The notes below the pieces were generated by a model. That model did no database searches. It had not been told where the DNA came from and saw only the letters and a list, made by a program, of their open reading frames with translations. A DNA stretch of 64,000 nucleotides from assembly GCA_949282215.1 (NCBI GenBank), contig CASDPF010000008.1, positions 1 to 64,000 of the forward strand, in the 5' to 3' direction. Shown here piece after piece: positions 26,689 through 63,174 of the stretch. Position numbers and translations under genes: made by a program. The stretch's first letter is position 1, and every line of letters begins with the position of its first letter. Origin of the DNA: an uncultured bacterium. Lineage in GTDB: Bacteria > Cyanobacteriota > Vampirovibrionia > Gastranaerophilales > Gastranaerophilaceae.

Positions 26689-26720
26689 AAGACTATCAAA
26701 TAAAAAAGATAGTCTTATTT
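26689..26720. repeat. Inverted repeat just downstream of the leader 1 -10 box
   Basis: AAGACTATC and GATAGTCTT pair over 9 bp with a 10-nt loop, then ATTTT. It could be the terminator of the preceding gene or an operator covering the transcription start. Leader 3 has a repeat in the same place; leader 2 does not. Confidence 0.55.
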
Positions 26721-26736: not shown

Positions 26737-26787
26737 ATGCAAAAACAGCTAATAGATAGAATTTCGGGGGGGGGGGCTGCCGACTAA
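26737..26787 (+). CDS. Leader ORF 1 containing the G11 run
   Basis: A 16-codon ORF, MQKQLIDRISGGGAAD, with a strong AAAGGAGG ribosome-binding site 4 nt upstream. The eleven-G run encodes three Gly (GGG) codons and flanking bases. The bases encoding DRIS plus the G run are identical in all three leaders. With one extra G (or a -1 ribosomal shift) the reading frame would instead continue to TGA at 26868-26870, giving a 44-residue peptide very similar to the equivalent in leader 2. Function as a regulatory leader peptide is inferred. Confidence 0.6.
   Translation: MQKQLIDRISGGGAAD
26766..26776 (+). repeat. Homopolymer run of 11 G in leader 1
   Basis: An unbroken G11 in an AT-rich genome, preceded by GATAGAATTTC. 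Runs of this length are prone to slippage in replication, transcription and translation. The same length occurs at 51770 and 58548. Confidence 0.9.
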
Positions 26788-26922
26788 CAGTTAGGACAAG
26801 CATTTCCGACTTAGACCTCCGATTAGATGAAAAAGAGCTGAGAAGTAAGCCGTGCCAGAAGACACGGTGATTTTTGATGCAAAATTTCTAAAAAGCATGT
26901 AATAAAAACAAACGGAGGATTT
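26788..26922 (+). promoter_or_regulatory. Pilin 4 leader RNA: anti-Shine-Dalgarno switch region
   Basis: CCTCCG at 26816-26821 lies 39 nt after the G run and can pair either with the G run (CGGGGG) or with the pilin ribosome-binding site CGGAGG at 26913-26918. A hairpin with arms CCGTG and CACGG and an 8-nt loop lies between at 26850-26867. From the G run to the hairpin this leader is nearly identical to leader 2, with a 38-nt block without any change. I do not recognise a known riboswitch class. Confidence 0.6.
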
Positions 26923-27726
26923 ATGAAAAAGAGAAATGCTTTTACATTGGCAGAAGTGCTTATTACATTAGGAATAATAGGTGTTGTTGCAGCTATGACA
27001 TTACCTGCACTTATAAATAAAACAAAAAACAAAAAATTGCATACAGCATTTTTAAAAACCTATGCTGAACTAAATCAGGTAGCGATGTTATTCAAGGCCG
27101 ATTACGGAATAACAGTCCCGGAAGCAGTGACAAATAGTGGAGGTATAATGCGAGAAAATAGTAAGAAGATAATAGCTTATTATAAAGGTGCTAAGTCTGT
27201 TAATTCTGGAGGTCAGGGCACTGATGACGGCGAAGGTAATTATCTTGCATTTTATTCATTGAGTACATTAAATGGCAAATCTTATTCAGGGGGTGCAAAT
27301 ACAAGCGGAAGAAATTCTTCTTTTTTCTGTGATTCTTCAGCTTTTACACCTACTCAATCCGGAGCTATAATGATATTTAATGATGCACCACGTGTGGAAG
27401 GTCAAAATGGACCTGTTGTCTGTGTAGATATAAATGGTAAGAAAAAGCCTAACCGTTATGGAATAGATTATTTTATGTTTATTTTTACACTTGACGGACG
27501 GGTTATTCCTGTGGGACAGGAGCATAAAGACAATCCTCCTGTATGTAACAGTGCATCAGGTTCTTGTGTTAATTTTAATAATGTAGGGCCTGAGTATTGT
27601 TCTAATACATCAAATGATATTTCAAAAAATACATCTTGTGCTTATTATGCACTGACAAATACGCACCCGACAAAAGAGGGAAAAGATTACTGGACAGATT
27701 TTTTAGGCGAGGTATACAGCAGATAA
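26923..27726 (+). CDS. Type IV pilin-like protein 4 (G-tract leader type)
   Basis: Encodes 267 residues, the longest of the pilin-like set. The start ACGGAGGATTTATG is identical in the three G-tract genes. Prepilin signal MKKRNA|FTLAEVLITLGIIG. The globular part has VDINGKKKPNRYGIDYFMF, a Gly/Ser/Asn-rich region near residues 110-130 and eight Cys, most in the last 130 residues. No divergent regulator is present; control probably lies in the leader. The stop codon touches the ftsL stop codon (0 nt gap, convergent). Confidence 0.9.
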   Translation: MKKRNAFTLAEVLITLGIIGVVAAMTLPALINKTKNKKLHTAFLKTYAELNQVAMLFKADYGITVPEAVTNSGGIMRENSKKIIAYYKGAKSVNSGGQGTDDGEGNYLAFYSLSTLNGKSYSGGANTSGRNSSFFCDSSAFTPTQSGAIMIFNDAPRVEGQNGPVVCVDINGKKKPNRYGIDYFMFIFTLDGRVIPVGQEHKDNPPVCNSASGSCVNFNNVGPEYCSNTSNDISKNTSCAYYALTNTHPTKEGKDYWTDFLGEVYSR

Positions 27727-48645: not shown

Positions 48646-49341
48646 TTATTTTTGTAAGTATTTCATGTCGCCGTTTGTTAGAATATATGATGCACATCCC
48701 CAACCTTCTGAGCCTGCTTTACAGTCATCCATTTTGTGAGGTCCAATCGTATTTTTAAGAATTATAAATGAAAATGTGTCTTTTCCTATAGTATTAGGCG
48801 GATTTTTACCGTTTACGTCAAGCCATATTGTACCACAGGAAGTTGTATATCCACCATCGGTACCTTTGCATGGAGAGTTAGGTGTGTAGACATCTCTTCT
48901 CATCCACATATAACTTCCGTCGCTGAGAATAACTTTATAATACCTTTTATCTGAATCGTAGTTAACCTGATTACCTCCATCTAAACGTTTGTACACTCCA
49001 CTTCCAATACATCCGCTCTCATTTCCGCAGTCTTTGCTAATTTTTAAATAAGGTTTGAAATAATTGAAAAGGTTATTACTCCTCAGACTACTCAGAGGGT
49101 CTTCTCCATTTTCAGCTTCATTGTCATTTTCAATAAAATCCCATTCATCAACGTATCCGTGATCTTTTATAGCCATCAAAAGTGCTTGATTAATTAATGA
49201 ATAGAATTTTTTGACTTTTGTTACTGTCACTCGCTCTTGATATTTATTAACTACACTTGGTAAAGTCATTGCTGCGATTATTCCTATGATGCCTAAGGTT
49301 ATAAGTACTTCTGCTAATGTAAATGCAGATTTCGATTTCAT
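48646..49341 (-). CDS. Type IV pilin-like protein 6
   Basis: Encodes 231 residues from ATG 49341, with AGAGGTG before it; GTG 49350 is within the ribosome-binding region. Prepilin signal MKSKSA|FTLAEVLITLGIIG. Signature WLDVNGKNPPNTIGKDTF. The globular part has six Cys, including CGNESGC, and a C-terminal GCASYILTNGDM like that of paralogue 5. Divergent from a small HTH-like gene. Confidence 0.9.
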   Translation of the reverse strand: MKSKSAFTLAEVLITLGIIGIIAAMTLPSVVNKYQERVTVTKVKKFYSLINQALLMAIKDHGYVDEWDFIENDNEAENGEDPLSSLRSNNLFNYFKPYLKISKDCGNESGCIGSGVYKRLDGGNQVNYDSDKRYYKVILSDGSYMWMRRDVYTPNSPCKGTDGGYTTSCGTIWLDVNGKNPPNTIGKDTFSFIILKNTIGPHKMDDCKAGSEGWGCASYILTNGDMKYLQK

Positions 49342-49370
49342 TATATTCACCTCTCTGTTTTTAAAATATT

Positions 49371-51740: not shown

Positions 51741-51791
51741 ATGCAAAAATCGCTGATAGATAGAATTTCGGGGGGGGGGGCTACCAACTAA
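51741..51791 (+). CDS. Leader ORF 2 containing the G11 run
   Basis: A 16-codon ORF, MQKSLIDRISGGGATN, with AAAGGAGG 4 nt upstream. With one extra G or a -1 shift the frame stays open to TGA at 51872-51874, giving a 44-residue peptide whose C-terminal part (LTVRTSISDLDLRL, then KPCQVTR) closely matches the shifted product of leader 1. Of about a dozen base differences downstream of the run, three are silent in that frame and some others are conservative, so the evidence for selection on the peptide is only suggestive. Confidence 0.6.
   Translation: MQKSLIDRISGGGATN
51770..51780 (+). repeat. Homopolymer run of 11 G in leader 2
   Basis: Identical length and identical upstream 11 bases (GATAGAATTTC) to the runs in leaders 1 and 3. 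Confidence 0.9.
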
Positions 51792-51929
51792 CAGTTAGGA
51801 CAAGCATTTCCGACTTAGACCTCCGATTGAACAAGAAAGAGCTGAAAAGCAAGCCGTGCCAAGTGACACGGTGAATTTTGATGCGAAAATTTTGAAAATA
51901 GGTAATCAAAATATAAAGACGGAGGATTT
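51792..51929 (+). promoter_or_regulatory. Pilin 7 leader RNA: anti-Shine-Dalgarno switch region
   Basis: CCTCCG at 51820-51825 lies 39 nt after the G run and matches both the run and the pilin ribosome-binding site CGGAGG at 51920-51925. The hairpin arms CCGTG and CACGG lie at 51854-51871 with an 8-nt loop. The layout and spacings equal those of leader 1. Confidence 0.6.
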
Positions 51930-52631
51930 ATGAAAAAGAAAAATGCTTTTACCTTAGCAGAGGTACTGATAACGTTAGGAATAATCGGGATAGTAGCAGC
52001 AATGACATTACCGACATTGATTGAAAAACATAAAAAACAAGTGACAGTTAATAAATTAAAAAGGAGTTATACTACAATATCTCAAATGTTCAACATGGCA
52101 AGAAAAGATTATGGAGATCCTAATGAATGGAGTTTTGAGTTTGGAGAACTAAATTCTAACAGTTTTATAGAAATTTTACCCAGAATTGCAAATACTTATT
52201 TTTTGCCATATTTGGATGTTATGGATAATTGCGGAATTTCTTGTTCAAAAATACCAAATAATTATAAATATTTAAATAATAGTCTTATTAATCAATTTCA
52301 TAGAAATCTGTATTATACAATTTTCCTAAAAGATGGTTCTATTCTGTTTTTTTCTGTTAATAATAATGGTGTAGAATTATATGATTTGATAGTAGTAATT
52401 GATATCGATGGTATAAAAGGAGAAAATACTATGGGGAAAGATGTATTTTCTTACTATTTAAATACAAAAACTGTTGCAAAAAGTAATTTTTGGGGATTAA
52501 CGGGTACAAATGTTAAACGAGAATCTCTTTTAAATGATGGCAGGGGGTGTAATAAAAATGGCTTGGGTCAGTATTGCGGAGCTTTAATTCAGTATGATGG
52601 TTGGGAAATAAAGGATGATTATCCTTGGTAG
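51930..52631 (+). CDS. Type IV pilin-like protein 7 (G-tract leader type)
   Basis: Encodes 233 residues after ACGGAGGATTT. Prepilin signal MKKKNA|FTLAEVLITLGIIG. The signature is degenerate but present (VIDIDGIKGENTMGKDVFSY). C-terminus YDGWEIKDDYPW, shared with paralogues 3 and 9. It has four Cys. No divergent regulator. A terminator follows directly. Confidence 0.9.
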   Translation: MKKKNAFTLAEVLITLGIIGIVAAMTLPTLIEKHKKQVTVNKLKRSYTTISQMFNMARKDYGDPNEWSFEFGELNSNSFIEILPRIANTYFLPYLDVMDNCGISCSKIPNNYKYLNNSLINQFHRNLYYTIFLKDGSILFFSVNNNGVELYDLIVVIDIDGIKGENTMGKDVFSYYLNTKTVAKSNFWGLTGTNVKRESLLNDGRGCNKNGLGQYCGALIQYDGWEIKDDYPW

Positions 52632-53951: not shown

Positions 53952-54118
53952 TTAATTTTTAACAATAAAATTATAGAAATTAAAAAACTTAATAGCAACA
54001 ATTTGTAATGTTTTCTTTAAAATAAAGTTTATTTATGTAAAAATTTCTTAATATAATGGTTTAGTGTGGCAAACTTTTGTATTTACGTTTGTTATATCGT
54101 TAGAAATAAGGAGTGTTT

Positions 54119-57100
54119 GTGAAAGTAAGTTTAGAAAAAAATAATGCCTCTCAAAATGTTGCATTTAAAGGATTTAAACCGGTAAAATCAGATCTCGGAC
54201 ATAACATGCTCGAGTTTAATTATACGTTTGATGATCATAATTACGATTGTTATTTAGAGCTTTGTGCTTTGGATGATGACGGAAATGGTAATTATAAAAA
54301 TAGCCGGGCTTTGAAAAATTTCGAAAAAAATGTATTGTCTTATAAGCTCCAGTGCGGACCTAATAGAATCAGTCTGCCGGCAGAATATAATTTAAATGAA
54401 GATACTCCTTTCGGATATCATTATAGACTTACCGAAAAAAATAATCCTGATCATACATTGGAATATGGTGTTGATGCAGGAGATATAATTGATTTCAGAA
54501 ACGGAAACGAACATTCCCACTTGATTTTTAATGTTATTACACCGGGTGCGACAAGAGGTACAAGAGGCGGATCCGGTATTTTAGCTATACCTGATTCATA
54601 TAATGCTATGTATGCCTATGATAAGGATGGCAATATTGTTCCGAATATTAAATACTTAGATGCAGTTAAATCAACTAAACATTTTTCAAATAAAGTGGGA
54701 GGTTCATTAGCAGGTATTGAGCATGATTTAGAAGCCGGAAAATTAGATCAGTACTCAAAAATATTTCTTACACCTTTTGCTACAGATGATAGTTTGACCC
54801 CACATTCTTATTGGGGAAAAAATTTCTTCCAAATTGCCCAATCACTAGGTAATATAGATAATTATGAATCTTTACAGAAAAAATTATTTGTTCGTGATAA
54901 AAATTTAGTTTCTGATGCCGCTTTATGTAATGAGGGATTGGAAGGTATTCATTTTCAACATATATTGAAATGGGGCAAAAAATCTTATGCTTATAATTGG
55001 TTTAGAGCTGATTTATCTCAAGCACCTTTAGGTTTGGGTGTAATGAGTAAGAATAAAGCATTTATAACTCATAAAGTTATTAATTCCCCATATTTGTTTA
55101 CTCAACAGCCTTCGGGTAAAATAACCTGGAAAAAAGCTCCTGTATGGAATGGAAAAGGGGAACAAGGTAATAAATATGATCCTAAGAGTCCTACTTATGT
55201 CCAAGTTATTGATAACAGTTTAACTCAAGGTACAGAAAGTAATAATAATACGAAGCTTTTAAAAGATTATTCAAGAAAAGATACAGGTAATCCTTATGAA
55301 AAAGTTACCCATAACGATACTGTAATTCTATATCACCATGAAATAAACCCTGAATTTTATCTTGATAACGTAAAACGCTTAAATGAATTAAATGCATCAA
55401 GACCTGATGGTCATTACTTGCAAATGAGTTCTTATGAAGCTGCAAAAATTCTTACAAAATTTGAATACTTTAATTATGAAGGTAAATTCGAAGGAAATAA
55501 GGAAGATTGGGATGCTAACGTTGACGTTGCAAAATTAAATTATTCTTTCTCAAACTATAATTCAGCTTATATGAAAGAACACGTCCCTATTGAAAAACGT
55601 AATCAATATAAAGCAATGATAAAACGTAAAAATAATGAAGTAAAAGATTATGCAATTACTTCTGCTCAATATTGGACAAGAAAAACTAATCAAATTCTGA
55701 ACTTATATGTTGCTCAGAACCTTAAAGCAAATGACTTGAGAAATTCTGAAGATGCAATGAAGGCAATTCATAAAAATATCAAAAATGGTAAGTTGCCTGC
55801 TTCTTTAGAATTTGAGTTGAATGATAATATAATTAAAAATGTGTTAAGCGGCGTATATAATCTTAAAGGAGCGAAAGATAACGATAATTTTGATGAAATA
55901 GTAATCAAAAATATGATGGATTTACCTCTCGATTCAATTGAATTTGGGGATAATATCGCAGCAGTATTTGCATCACCTTATCTTACTAAACGTGCAACTG
56001 ATGAAAAACAAATCGGTGTTTCAAGATATGATTTGATGAAACAAGACAACCCGCATTTAACTCCTGAGTATAAAAATGCATATACCAAAATGAATAATTT
56101 GTATCAAGGTGAAATGTATGAGTTTGCACAGGATATTATAAATCGACTTGAAGAAAAACTTTCAAAAGAGCAAGTTTTATCCTCTTATACTAATGCAACA
56201 AAATACGGAAAATTTGTAATTCCTATTATAGCTCCGGAGATTGCAAAATTTGCCATTGTAAAAGGTCTATTTCCGGATGCAGAGGTGAAAATTAAGCCTG
56301 ATGGCGGTATTGCTTATGATTACGAAAAATTAAAAAATACATCATTACAGGCATTGAGTATTTATCCTACTTGTCCTGAAGATGAAGCTCTGTCTTTAAT
56401 AAATCGTTTAAGAGGAAAAGATTTAACTCATAAAGGTATTCCTGCAATAAGTGATGAAGATAGGAAAATTCTTGTAGATTCTTTATACAAAATGCTTAAA
56501 GATACAAATCTTTCAAGTTTCAGAATGGCAGAAATGCTTGTAGATAGAGCACAAGGCGGTCTGGATTGGAGAATAGATGCAGCAAAAGATATTGCAGATA
56601 AAGAATCTTTATTAAATAAAAAGACAACTTTTGAAAAAAGTTGGAATCAGGTTATAGATTTTTGGAAAATGTTTGCCCAAAATATTTATAAACAAAATCC
56701 AAATTCATATCTTGTAGCCGAAATTACTGATGTCGGTAAGTTGTATGATAAAGGTGCAGGTTGGGCTTCGGCTAAATACTATAACCAAAAAGACGTGCTG
56801 ATGAAGTTTTTACGTGAAACCGGAGTCACAGCAGCGGCAAACTATGAATATTTCTTTTCTGATGTTGCCGGTATTTTCTCAAAAAGTTATGAAAAATATG
56901 AAGATCGCGGCGTATTCCAGAATAGTAAAATTCATGAACTGTTAAAGAAAAACGGAGCGGACTTTTTACATTCAGGACCTTTAGGATCAATTCTATATTC
57001 ATATACTTTTGTCGATAACCATGATAAGCCAAGAGCATTGCATATGATGGCTCTTGACAGTCAATTGTTCTATTCTCCTCATTTAAATACAAATACTCAT

Positions 57101-58426
57101 AACAAGGGTATTGATAGTGTGGAATACAGAGAAAAAGAAAAGGCTTATAGAGTATTAAATAATAAATTCTTTGGCAATGTAGAAAAACAAGATGTTGATA
57201 AATTTAACTTTATGAGAAAAAGTACAAAAGCAATTGCGATGGGTGATGCTTTGAATAATGCTTTTGGGCGTGCTCTTGAAAATTTGGAGCATAAAGGTAT
57301 TATTGATGGTGCAAAAAGAGATAATATCTATCAAGCAGTAGCTCAATCAATAAGTGATTTGGCTAATGGAAAATATCTCGGAAAAACATTTGAAGCTGAT
57401 GCTTTTGGTACAAGACCTTTTGATATAACAATTGAAACTGTAATGAGACAAGCAAAAGCTAAACATGGTCTTTCAATAGACAAAGATACCGAAAATAAAA
57501 TAAAAGAAAAAACTTTCTATATGTGTTTAGATCCTGCAATTTCAAAATTGCTCGGAATTATGAAGTTCTTAGTTGCATTACCTGGTATTCCAACAATGTT
57601 CGCAGGGGATGATATAGCATCTACAGGTTATGAAGAATTAACTCGTAATATATATCTGCAAAACCGTTCTGTAATACATCATGAATGGTTGGAAGATGAG
57701 CCTCATGGTATTGATTTTGTCAAGTCACATAAGGCTGAATTCGATGCGATAATGGGATTACGCAGACGTCCGGAACTTAATGCTCTTAATGATGGTGCTC
57801 CATTTCTTTTGAATTTACAAGGCGGTAAAATTTCTCAAGATGGTAAGGATATAGAAGTTAAATTACCTGCAATTTTACGTCATAGTACAGATGGAAGAAT
57901 GACTGTTTCCTTGTTTAATACCGTTGGTGTAACTCACGATTTCGACAAATATAATGTCCCAAATCAATATACTGTTGAAATTGGCGGGATAAATCTTGAT
58001 TATGATGAATATGGTGATAAGACAGGTCTAAAAGCAGGCTTGCCTGAGGGAACTGAATTTGTAAATGCAGCAAACCCGAATGAAAAATTTGTTGTGAAAC
58101 GGGAAGGTAAGCACTATTATATTTCTCATTATAATGACAAGGATCCAATTATATTAAAAGATAATATTTTGGTTCTATATCATGTGCCGCAGCATGTTCA
58201 AACTCAAATTGATAAATTTAATGAATTAAAAGCGGCAATCAAGTCCCCAAATAATGTACATGAAAATACGTTTAAGAAAATAAAACAGATGGCTGCTGCC
58301 GATAAGACTTCATTCTCAGGCAGATCCGCTCAATTGTATAATCCTCAATATAATTTTGTATCAAAACCTTATATGCAGCAGAAAAAAGCTGAAACAGGCT
58401 CTAAATTATCTTTAATTGCAAGATAG
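54119..58426 (+). CDS. Very large GH13-family (alpha-amylase-like) protein
   Basis: Encodes 1435 residues from GTG 54119, chosen because AAGGAG sits 5 nt before it. An N-terminal FKG motif (ASQNVAFKGFKPVK) and a beta-rich domain resembling a family-48-type glycan module come first. GH13 landmarks come late: LDWRIDAAKD with nucleophile Asp820, YLVAEITDVGK with acid/base Glu868 and YTFVDNHDKPR with Asp969. The region of about 300 residues before them is an insertion relative to common amylases. LPGIPTMFAGDDIASTGYEE follows. No signal peptide, so it should act in the cytoplasm, perhaps on glycogen-like polymer with the GH77-like enzyme. Exact reaction unknown. Confidence 0.8.
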   Translation: MKVSLEKNNASQNVAFKGFKPVKSDLGHNMLEFNYTFDDHNYDCYLELCALDDDGNGNYKNSRALKNFEKNVLSYKLQCGPNRISLPAEYNLNEDTPFGYHYRLTEKNNPDHTLEYGVDAGDIIDFRNGNEHSHLIFNVITPGATRGTRGGSGILAIPDSYNAMYAYDKDGNIVPNIKYLDAVKSTKHFSNKVGGSLAGIEHDLEAGKLDQYSKIFLTPFATDDSLTPHSYWGKNFFQIAQSLGNIDNYESLQKKLFVRDKNLVSDAALCNEGLEGIHFQHILKWGKKSYAYNWFRADLSQAPLGLGVMSKNKAFITHKVINSPYLFTQQPSGKITWKKAPVWNGKGEQGNKYDPKSPTYVQVIDNSLTQGTESNNNTKLLKDYSRKDTGNPYEKVTHNDTVILYHHEINPEFYLDNVKRLNELNASRPDGHYLQMSSYEAAKILTKFEYFNYEGKFEGNKEDWDANVDVAKLNYSFSNYNSAYMKEHVPIEKRNQYKAMIKRKNNEVKDYAITSAQYWTRKTNQILNLYVAQNLKANDLRNSEDAMKAIHKNIKNGKLPASLEFELNDNIIKNVLSGVYNLKGAKDNDNFDEIVIKNMMDLPLDSIEFGDNIAAVFASPYLTKRATDEKQIGVSRYDLMKQDNPHLTPEYKNAYTKMNNLYQGEMYEFAQDIINRLEEKLSKEQVLSSYTNATKYGKFVIPIIAPEIAKFAIVKGLFPDAEVKIKPDGGIAYDYEKLKNTSLQALSIYPTCPEDEALSLINRLRGKDLTHKGIPAISDEDRKILVDSLYKMLKDTNLSSFRMAEMLVDRAQGGLDWRIDAAKDIADKESLLNKKTTFEKSWNQVIDFWKMFAQNIYKQNPNSYLVAEITDVGKLYDKGAGWASAKYYNQKDVLMKFLRETGVTAAANYEYFFSDVAGIFSKSYEKYEDRGVFQNSKIHELLKKNGADFLHSGPLGSILYSYTFVDNHDKPRALHMMALDSQLFYSPHLNTNTHNKGIDSVEYREKEKAYRVLNNKFFGNVEKQDVDKFNFMRKSTKAIAMGDALNNAFGRALENLEHKGIIDGAKRDNIYQAVAQSISDLANGKYLGKTFEADAFGTRPFDITIETVMRQAKAKHGLSIDKDTENKIKEKTFYMCLDPAISKLLGIMKFLVALPGIPTMFAGDDIASTGYEELTRNIYLQNRSVIHHEWLEDEPHGIDFVKSHKAEFDAIMGLRRRPELNALNDGAPFLLNLQGGKISQDGKDIEVKLPAILRHSTDGRMTVSLFNTVGVTHDFDKYNVPNQYTVEIGGINLDYDEYGDKTGLKAGLPEGTEFVNAANPNEKFVVKREGKHYYISHYNDKDPIILKDNILVLYHVPQHVQTQIDKFNELKAAIKSPNNVHENTFKKIKQMAAADKTSFSGRSAQLYNPQYNFVSKPYMQQKKAETGSKLSLIAR

Positions 58427-58435
58427 ATTATTATA

Positions 58436-58464
58436 TTGAATATGATTAAAATATATGCTAAAAT
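58436..58464 (+). promoter_or_regulatory. Promoter of G-tract leader 3 / pilin gene 8
   Basis: TTGAAT, a 17-nt spacer and TAAAAT, the same hexamers as for leader 1, starting 9 nt after the preceding stop codon. Confidence 0.6.
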
Positions 58465-58505
58465 TAATAGAGAAATATTTATTATTTCTCTATTAATTTT
58501 TATGG
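58460..58505. repeat. Long inverted repeat at the leader 3 transcription start
   Basis: Arms of 18 nt at 58460-58477 and 58483-58500 are perfectly complementary around a 5-nt loop and end in TTTTT. The left arm overlaps the -10 box. As in leader 1, it could be the terminator of the preceding gene or an operator. Confidence 0.65.
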
Positions 58506-58518
58506 AAAGGTGGAATAT

Positions 58519-58578
58519 ATGCGTAATACAGTTGTAGATAGAATTTCGGGGGGGGGGGTAGCTGCTTACAAGCTGTAG
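58519..58578 (+). CDS. Leader ORF 3 containing the G11 run
   Basis: A 19-codon ORF, MRNTVVDRISGGGVAAYKL, with GAAAGGTGG upstream. With one extra G or a -1 shift at the run there is no stop before the pilin gene, so the leader ORF and the pilin gene would be read as one 314-residue protein. In leaders 1 and 2 the same shift ends at a TGA just after the hairpin. Confidence 0.6.
   Translation: MRNTVVDRISGGGVAAYKL
58548..58558 (+). repeat. Homopolymer run of 11 G in leader 3
   Basis: Same length and same preceding GATAGAATTTC as in leaders 1 and 2, although the sequence further downstream is much diverged. Confidence 0.9.
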
Positions 58579-58697
58579 AGCGTCTTTTTCCTTTATGCCT
58601 CCGCAAAATAAACGAAAAATTTACTGTGTCATTAGGCACGGAGTTTTGCAGTGCAAATTCTTTTGAAATGATAGAAAAATTTTATAACGGAGGATTT
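58579..58697 (+). promoter_or_regulatory. Pilin 8 leader RNA: anti-Shine-Dalgarno switch region
   Basis: CCTCCG at 58598-58603 is again 39 nt after the G run and can pair with the pilin ribosome-binding site CGGAGG at 58688-58693. The hairpin is CTGTG with CACGG at 58624-58641: one arm changed C to T, which keeps pairing as a G-U, and the loop is again 8 nt. Much of the remaining sequence differs from leaders 1 and 2, so the kept elements are probably functional. Confidence 0.62.
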
Positions 58698-59462
58698 ATG
58701 AAATCGAAAAAAGCTTTTACGTTAGCTGAGGTTCTAATTACGCTCGGCATAATCGGGATAGTAGCGGCTTTGACAATACCGCAGCTAATAAAAGATTATA
58801 AGGGGAGGGGTTTTGAGACGCAATTTAAAAAAGCTTATAACATAGCTCAACAGGTTATTATGTCTGCTAAAAACGATGTTGGGGTAGGTAATTTTACTTC
58901 TTTTTGTGTATCTTACACCGAAGATTCCGGATATTATAACAGTAATATATGTTATAGAGCTTTGTCAAAGGCTTTAAGCGGTGTCGAGACAAAGAGTACG
59001 TATATTTATGATCCAAAATATCAGATAAAAAGAGATGATGAGATAAGGACTTATAATAACAGGCAGGAAGCCACTATTTCTTCAATTGCAGGTTTTGGTA
59101 ATTTATGGCAATTATACAAAAATAAGGATGGAGCATTAATGCAATTTTCAATAATTGAGGGTAGAGTCTATATATCGATTGATACAAACGGATTGAATAA
59201 GCCTAATCAATTAGGTCATGATATTTTTGTTATGTATACAGATAGTCGAGATAGAGTGGTAGGAAACAAGCAATCAAGGCTATATACAGACGAAGAACTT
59301 GATAATATGGATTTTGAACACGAATATGACAAAGAACGTGCAGGAAATCCTTGCAGTGCAAAGTCTAATCAGAAAGCAAACGGAATAGGGTGTTCCTGGT
59401 ATGCAATAAATGATATAAATCCTGATACCGGAAAAAACGGTTATTGGAAGAATTTACCTTAA
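58698..59462 (+). CDS. Type IV pilin-like protein 8 (G-tract leader type)
   Basis: Encodes 254 residues from ATG 58698 after ACGGAGGATTT; the in-frame GTG at 58626 would bury the prepilin signal. Signal MKSKKA|FTLAEVLITLGIIG, with AALTIPQL where most paralogues have AAMTLPTL. Signature SIDTNGLNKPNQLGHDIFVM. It has five or so Cys and ends GCSWYAINDINPDTGKNGYW, resembling paralogue 4 near its end. The 3' end overlaps the convergent maf gene by 9 nt. Confidence 0.9.
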   Translation: MKSKKAFTLAEVLITLGIIGIVAALTIPQLIKDYKGRGFETQFKKAYNIAQQVIMSAKNDVGVGNFTSFCVSYTEDSGYYNSNICYRALSKALSGVETKSTYIYDPKYQIKRDDEIRTYNNRQEATISSIAGFGNLWQLYKNKDGALMQFSIIEGRVYISIDTNGLNKPNQLGHDIFVMYTDSRDRVVGNKQSRLYTDEELDNMDFEHEYDKERAGNPCSAKSNQKANGIGCSWYAINDINPDTGKNGYWKNLP

Positions 59463-62466: not shown

Positions 62467-63174
62467 ATGAAAAAAGCATTTACATTAGCAGAGGTATTGA
62501 TAACATTAGGTATAATTGGAATAGTTGCAGCGATGACAATGCCAACATTAATTGAAAAACATAGAAAACATGAATATGCTATAAGGGCTAAAGAGGCTTA
62601 TTCTATTATGTCTCAGGCAATAAAGTTGTCAGAGGTAGAAAATGGTGATGTAAAGTACTGGGAGACAAATTTAAGTGGTTCTCATAGTTTTAAAAACACG
62701 GATATGTTTTACAAAAAATATATATTACCATATTTAAAGGGCTACAAATATTGTGCTTCTGGCAAGTCAGAGGATACAAAAAAGAAATGTGGGCTTGCAC
62801 CACTTACAGCATCGCATACTTATTTTTTGAATAATGGAGTTGCGATAGCTTTACAACCAATGATCGGTAGTTCTGATACGATTTTTAATTTAAGTATGGA
62901 TGTAAATGGACCGTTGGGACCAAATAAATTGGGTAATGACCACTTTCAATTTTATCTATACAAAAAGTATGGAAAACTTGCCCAAATACGTGAAACTTCA
63001 GGTTTTACGGGAAATGAAATATTGCAAGGAAAAGAAGTCGTGATAGATGGTACATTACATTATGTTTCCTGTAAAAAATCTAAATCAGATGACGATGATT
63101 ACTATTATCGTCATGGTTGTACCGCTCTATTAATTATGGATGGTTGGGAATTAAAAGATGATTATCCGTGGTAA
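62467..63174 (+). CDS. Type IV pilin-like protein 9
   Basis: Encodes 235 residues. AGGAGG lies 7 nt before the ATG. Prepilin signal MKKA|FTLAEVLITLGIIG. MSQAIKLSEVENGDVKYWE is close to INQAFKASELENGEQRYWE in paralogue 1, so these two are the nearest relatives. Signature SMDVNGPLGPNKLGNDHFQF. C-terminus MDGWELKDDYPW. Four Cys. Divergent XRE regulator. Confidence 0.9.
   Translation: MKKAFTLAEVLITLGIIGIVAAMTMPTLIEKHRKHEYAIRAKEAYSIMSQAIKLSEVENGDVKYWETNLSGSHSFKNTDMFYKKYILPYLKGYKYCASGKSEDTKKKCGLAPLTASHTYFLNNGVAIALQPMIGSSDTIFNLSMDVNGPLGPNKLGNDHFQFYLYKKYGKLAQIRETSGFTGNEILQGKEVVIDGTLHYVSCKKSKSDDDDYYYRHGCTALLIMDGWELKDDYPW

Follow-up and report, generated by a model that had tools for sequence, protein, structure and literature searches.

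A guanine tract in a short leader ORF as a probable one-base switch for a large prepilin family of an uncultured gut Gastranaerophilaceae bacterium

Our results show that, in a 64,000-nt window of DNA from an uncultured bacterium of the Gastranaerophilaceae (contig CASDPF010000008.1, positions 1 to 64,000; the window is the whole stretch analysed), three prepilin-like genes are each preceded by a leader in which a run of 11 Gs sits inside a short leader ORF that has a Shine-Dalgarno sequence of its own and a start codon 29 nt upstream of the tract. Leaders of this kind recur throughout the 2.19-Mb genome to which the window belongs (G000), and each is probably a one-base translation switch, that is, a form of phase variation, for the prepilin gene that follows, working through a leader ORF whose translation would unmask the Shine-Dalgarno sequence of that gene.

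The third leader had been described in a preliminary description as a diverged copy that keeps GATAGAATTTC joined to G11, an exact 39-nt spacing to CCTCCG, a hairpin and CGGAGG. All of these are present, and alignment with leaders 1 and 2 confirms that leader 3 is mostly diverged from both and nonetheless keeps the blocks of the layout. The hairpin loop is 8 nt as stated, and the C-to-T change in the stem does still pair, as a one-sided U-G wobble. The RNA layout of that description thus stands; what it missed is the leader ORF, the stop codon in the resting frame and the complementarity of CCTCCG to the prepilin Shine-Dalgarno sequence. The features of leader 3, with the basis of each in brackets, are:

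58506..58513, + strand: Shine-Dalgarno sequence of the leader ORF, AAAGGTGG (sequence)
58519..58578, + strand: leader ORF at G11, 19 codons, MRNTVVDRISGGGVAAYKL, then TAG (sequence; stop at +20 past the tract)
58537..58558, + strand: frame-setting tract, GATAGAATTTC at 58537-58547 and G11 at 58548-58558 (sequence, shuffle counts)
58559..58597, + strand: 39-nt stretch of fixed length from tract to CCTCCG, holding the resting-frame stop (sequence; family spacing count)
58598..58603, + strand: CCTCCG, predicted partner of the prepilin Shine-Dalgarno sequence (base counts, folding)
58624..58641, + strand: hairpin of five pairs, CTGTG at 58624-58628, loop TCATTAGG at 58629-58636 (8 nt), CACGG at 58637-58641 (sequence; family conservation)
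58688..58693, + strand: CGGAGG, prepilin Shine-Dalgarno sequence (sequence)
58698..59462, + strand: prepilin-like gene with ATG at 58698, 254 aa, N_methyl PF07963 (profile match)

Those of leaders 1 and 2 are:

26737..26787, + strand: leader ORF of leader 1, MQKQLIDRISGGGAAD, stop TAA, with tract G11 at 26766-26776 (sequence, frames)
26816..26918, + strand: leader 1, CCTCCG at 26816-26821, hairpin at 26850-26867, CGGAGG at 26913-26918; the G12 frame ends at 26870 (sequence, frames, covariance model)
26923..27726, + strand: prepilin-like gene of leader 1, 267 aa (profile match)
51741..51791, + strand: leader ORF of leader 2, MQKSLIDRISGGGATN, stop TAA, with tract G11 at 51770-51780 (sequence, frames)
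51820..51925, + strand: leader 2, CCTCCG at 51820-51825, hairpin at 51854-51871, CGGAGG at 51920-51925; the G12 frame ends at 51874 (sequence, frames, covariance model)
51930..52631, + strand: prepilin-like gene of leader 2, 233 aa (profile match)

The genes behind the leaders are prepilin-like by matches above cut-off to both N_methyl (PF07963) and TIGR02532. The three leaders are the sole places in the window with runs of ten Gs (6 overlapping matches against a shuffle mean of 0.00), and likewise with the exact form of GATAGAATTTC. With up to two mismatches this sequence occurs 52 times in the window against 46.5 in shuffles, which is no excess; it was therefore rejected as a stand-alone motif, what is unusual being its exact form joined to the G-run. 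A covariance model was made from 24 other leaders (leader 3, L086, L098 and L099 were omitted, deliberately or for poor alignment) for the region that opens immediately ahead of CCTCC and ends at the prepilin ATG. It recovered leader 3 in the 64-kb window at E=1.8e-9 and found leaders 1, 2 and 3 with nothing else below E=0.5. No Rfam family matched the window at its gathering score.

Two other prepilin-like genes of the window have no preceding G-run (48646-49350 on the minus strand and 62467-63174 on the plus strand), and the latter shares with the prepilin of leader 2 a weak, sub-cut-off match to DUF6613. A 1437-aa protein (54113-58426) ends about 270 nt before the prepilin of leader 3; it has no Pfam match, and by eye it holds stretches that we take to resemble alpha-amylase family enzymes. 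Leaders 1 and 3 have, immediately upstream of the leader ORF, inverted repeats followed by T-rich sequence (26689-26716 and 58466-58494); these are absent upstream of leader 2 and are perhaps terminators of the upstream gene; across the family they precede 32 of 103 leaders against 19 of 103 in one shuffle, a weak excess.

That family of 103 leaders was gathered by G-run and hairpin, independently of spacing, and its most constant feature is the distance from tract to CCTCC, which lies at exactly +39 in 98 leaders. Three more carry a one-letter variant at that position (L047, CCTAC; L086, CCTCT; L096, TCTCC). The 39-nt stretches themselves fall into 13 clusters at 70% identity, copies from the sister species included, and insertions and deletions are frequent downstream of CCTCC. 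The proposal that the layout is functional and goes beyond duplication is supported by this spacing. Homologues that have lost the spacing, which had been named as evidence against a functional layout provided that their gene is normally expressed, do exist, at two of the 103 leaders: L120, with a 34-nt deletion, and L166 (in G010), with TCTCC at +30. The support from the hairpin proved weaker than claimed. The CCGTG hairpin is almost invariant across the family, and in the family alignment neither the hairpin nor the helix between CCTCC and the Shine-Dalgarno sequence shows compensatory base changes. Covariation as proof of the hairpin was thus dropped; a hairpin this invariant leaves no room for it, and the evidence for it is its conservation. 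A structure common to all 39-nt stretches is not claimed, as their foldings vary among copies.

The role of CCTCC is suggested by the bases around its presumed partner. In counts over copies that are related and not independent, the base before the prepilin GGAGG is C in 84 cases, T in 14 and A in 4 (n=102), that before the GGAGG of the leader ORF is A in 80, T in 9 and C in 1 (n=90), and CCTCC is followed by G in 89 of 98. The C before the prepilin GGAGG matches the G after CCTCC, so a sixth base pair seems to be favoured as well; the background available for the GGAGG context within the loci, 5 non-prepilin and 9 other prepilin genes, is too small for comparison. When RNA that begins at +24 and extends 25 nt beyond the ATG is folded, CCTCC is predicted to pair with the prepilin Shine-Dalgarno sequence with a mean of 0.97 over 97 leaders, and the latter is unpaired at 0.013. 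The predicted unpaired value rises to 0.26 when the six bases are scrambled, and to 0.56 when the RNA starts at +60, as it would behind a ribosome that has passed.

The leader ORF gives a reading-frame meaning to the tract. In 97 of 101 leaders its start codon, with a Shine-Dalgarno sequence, stands exactly 29 nt upstream of the tract. At the observed G11 the ORF ends at +11 past the tract in leaders 1 and 2 and at +20 in leader 3, and at G10 it ends at +18 and +3, respectively. At G12 it stays open in leaders 1 and 2 to +94, beyond CCTCCG and just beyond the hairpin, and in leader 3 it is open from 58519 to 59462, through CCTCCG and into the prepilin gene. The same holds at a tract length n of 11 in strongly diverged leaders too, where the leader ORF terminates between +11 and +20 and an alternative frame continues beyond CCTCC. 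Two of the 103 leaders have no start; of the other 101, 95 have an observed frame that closes ahead of CCTCC and six have one that stays open: L015, L186 (second copy), L198 and L199, all with G12 in the sister genome G003, together with L120 and L166. Within G000, no leader with an intact layout rests in the open frame, the sole open one being L120 with its 34-nt deletion.

In all ten clusters tested, the three with an open observed frame having been excluded from the 13, the resting frame has met a stop by +23 and an alternative frame runs on past CCTCC; a shuffled 39-nt stretch gives the same closed and open pattern with a probability of 0.21-0.36 per cluster. The open frame is n+1 in the main group, leader 3, L081 and L096, n-1 in L086, L099, L117 and L174, and both in L098 and L165. 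The open frame differs among clusters yet CCTCC is kept, which argues for a role of this segment as nucleotides and not as peptide; for the same reason a peptide function of the open frame was judged unlikely.

These elements can be joined into the following mechanism. Ribosomes would start on the short leader ORF and enter the G-run at about the tenth codon. At the resting length of 11 Gs, and in most copies also at 10, they would reach a stop codon no more than about 20 nt on, before CCTCC; the downstream mRNA would then fold, CCTCC(G) would pair with (C)GGAGG, and the gene would be off with its Shine-Dalgarno sequence hidden. If the tract slips by one G, the open frame would carry ribosomes through CCTCC, the helix would be held open and the gene would be on. 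In leader 3 the open frame would additionally fuse the leader ORF to the prepilin frame. We infer both the slippage of the DNA in cells and the resulting change of expression; near-identical leaders of different gene copies do differ in the tract, with 10, 11, 12 or 13 Gs. In L111, one T is missing beside the tract and one extra G is present, so that the frame is preserved.

The repertoire in G000 is large. There are 89 tracts of at least 9 Gs, of which 86 count as distinct after removal of those with flanks equal to those of another tract, also across genomes. Their lengths are 67 G11, 10 G10, 5 G12, 2 G13 and 2 G9, and a prepilin motif lies no more than 600 nt downstream of 79 of them; four of the seven others are at a contig edge. 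The genome holds at least 150 N_methyl matches. The leader model has 68 matches in G000 and 39 in its sister genome G003; G002 follows with 5, G007 and G010 with 2 each, and G006 with 1. It found no match in the other 7 of the 13 genomes of the genus, in 46 genomes outside the genus, or in viral contigs. G-runs are common across the family, at 0 to 116 per genome, and genomes tested from other families have few, from 0 to 6.

Beyond residue 35, the 55 complete leader-class ORFs of G000 fall into 52 clusters when grouped at 70% identity and into 46 at 50%, and 48 of them link at 30%, so that the leader-class prepilins are one family, and a very diverse one. Five of the leader-class ORFs are shorter than 150 residues (L031, L036, L041, L111 and L117), as though a further frameshift or stop had interrupted them. 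One G11 tract (L104, tract at 602; G000:C11:20722) lies in a non-prepilin gene whose observed frame is closed and whose G10 frame is open; its downstream frame, VYLWVDGSDPEI, presumably belongs to a protein resembling Stealth-type sugar-phosphate transferases. At L178 (G000:C13:102565) the tract reads GGGGGAGGGGG and is interrupted, which would lock it at the resting length. Contig ends often fall at tracts (C1:12, C19:29 and C32:2 in G000, and also in G015 and G025), and copies have therefore probably been missed or collapsed in such assemblies. A genome of another family of the order, G063, which is 78% complete, has 88 N_methyl matches and no G-run of 9 or more, and looks like a prepilin expansion that lacks the switch.

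Many prepilin genes carry the tract in their own first codons, and this direct class would be a simpler form of the switch. It was sampled in G000 and G010 (both of genus g1), G015, G021 and G033, with 10 loci each from G010, G015 and G021 and 11 regions of G033, and was restricted to genes with a good Shine-Dalgarno sequence, 500 nt of downstream sequence and a prepilin motif within 170 codons. Among the 40 genes from four genera, 4 are in frame and 36 out of frame, where one third would be expected in frame (p=0.0006), and 30 of those out of frame need one G less against 6 that need one more (direction p=7e-5). Counted by 24 flank groups, 19 need one G less, 4 one more and 1 is in frame. Most tracts of g1 and G015 rest at 11 Gs; the ten G021 loci have 12 to 14, most often 13, with the same offset as g1 and G015, and G033 has similar starts with G10 (out of frame) and G11 (in frame). 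More broadly, G010, G015, G021 and G033 (loci L124-L134 and L213-L242) hold tens of G-tracts of 9 to 14 residues, many at the starts of prepilin-like genes, which points to a family-wide pilus phasome.

Genome-wide, roughly 80 diverse prepilins would have an off state in the consensus, and each would lie a single base away from on. A stronger proposition is that these prepilins are silent by default and exactly one G from expression, that in most of them the frame of the leader ORF decides whether the Shine-Dalgarno sequence is unmasked, and that the off-by-one length, too, is kept in place, with the result that any one cell samples few pilins; we offer it tentatively, as a possibility that falls a little short of an even chance.

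By two features the loci resemble contingency loci: a homopolymeric tract, of about 8 residues or more, lies in or before a surface-protein gene, and its length determines in which frame the gene, or a control element, is read, as judged from the frames. The uniformity of the tract is odd for a hypermutable sequence and counts against phase variation, since exactly 11 Gs are present in 89 of the 103 leaders and in both species for three between-species counterparts (clusters L081/L210, L098/L211 and L099/L212). The closed frame of every intact leader of G000 counts against it as well. Two opposite biases of direction, the main leader group having one G too few and the direct class one G too many, are likewise not predicted by phase variation with free drift. 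Either the off state is strongly favoured with a narrow length equilibrium, or the tract is a recoding site. A missing MutS was rejected as a cause of the tracts, as MutS1 is present in G000.

The oddly uniform resting lengths make recoding the main rival, under which RNA polymerase or the ribosome would slip on the G-run at a set rate and give constant low expression from DNA of fixed length. We consider it unlikely. The G11 count kept between species would suit it, as would the one-way offset of the direct class, which is also seen at the G021 loci resting mostly at 13; however, the direction of slippage needed differs within one genome, +1 G for the main leader group and -1 G for the direct class, near-identical leaders carry natural G10, G12 and G13 alleles, and the glycine tRNAs found have the ordinary anticodons TCC, CCC and GCC, no odd glycine tRNA being present in the 28 loci scanned, out of 30 drawn from 44 tRNA matches. 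In Bifidobacterium breve, the available part of the report describes pilus genes with G-tracts that are out of frame as annotated, in which productive slippage is mostly the loss of one G and deep sequencing traces the tract change to replication slippage (PMC9187656), and this favours a narrow equilibrium over recoding. A frame switch could also act on transcription, with an early leader stop exposing the RNA to Rho or the CCGTG hairpin acting as terminator. Polarity past an out-of-frame stop is described for Bifidobacterium pilus genes in the part of that report available (PMC9187656), and many leaders have a T-rich stretch after the hairpin, but the stem has just five or six pairs, the T-run is short, and both CCTCC and the C before GGAGG would be left unexplained; we rate this as somewhat less probable even than recoding.

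Two further explanations would make the frame irrelevant or incidental. The G-run could be the target of a C-rich small RNA, as RepG targets the tlpB leader in Helicobacter pylori according to the portion of that work available (PMC8295292), and a G11 leader common to tens of genes would suit a single trans regulator. This is very improbable, given that the frame behaviour is conserved where the sequence is not and that the frame of the prepilin ORF in the direct class clearly depends on the tract. We give just as little credence to the leader being an anchor for recombination or gene conversion that shuffles prepilin genes and has no role in switching: near-identical leaders do precede very different prepilins (the 52 clusters among 55 proteins noted above), but the fixed spacing, the frame logic and the Shine-Dalgarno complementarity of diverged leaders would go unexplained. 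Such an anchoring role may exist beside the switch.

The translation switch that we favour has partial parallels in known systems. In erm-type translational attenuators, a leader ORF precedes a masked Shine-Dalgarno sequence and the position of the ribosome decides expression, a drug stalling the ribosome. The present leaders likewise have a leader ORF and a Shine-Dalgarno sequence that is predicted to be masked, and the ribosome position would be decisive in them too, but the length of the G-run in the DNA would set the position of the stop in place of a stalling drug. The sortase-pilus switch of B. breve, as far as the available part of its report describes it, is similar in having a G10-G11 tract near the start of a pilus gene, an annotated state that is out of frame and a gut habitat (PMC9187656); it comprises two loci with fused ORFs, whereas here tens of prepilin genes are involved, and the tract of the leader class, placed in a leader ORF apart from the prepilin gene, would affect that gene by way of its Shine-Dalgarno sequence. 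Campylobacter poly-G contingency loci are likewise frame switches of surface functions, and in the accessible part of the PhasomeIt study Campylobacter jejuni has 18-39 phase-variable genes per genome (PMC6321876). From the same part, tracts there are mostly inside genes of mixed function and most commonly G9, whereas here nearly all serve one family and G11 is the most common (PMC6321876). The RepG/tlpB system also has a variable G-repeat in an mRNA leader, but the available portion of its description presents graded control by a small RNA and no reading-frame switch (PMC8295292). Within the Gastranaerophilales, ordinary type IV pilus genes have been described for a termite-gut member, according to the part of that paper available (PMC5877343); the literature searched, with most subscription papers outside it, yielded no report of phase variation in this order and no description of such a leader.

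If this reading is correct, an uncultured gut lineage, a gut relative of the cyanobacteria, would possess a very large phase-variation repertoire on its pili drawn from a single family, and most of these prepilins would look switched off or damaged in assemblies of such genomes. It would also provide a contingency tract that lies outside the gene it controls and works through translation of a leader, and a testable case of how the length of a tract, its resting state and the position of the ribosome are adjusted to one another.
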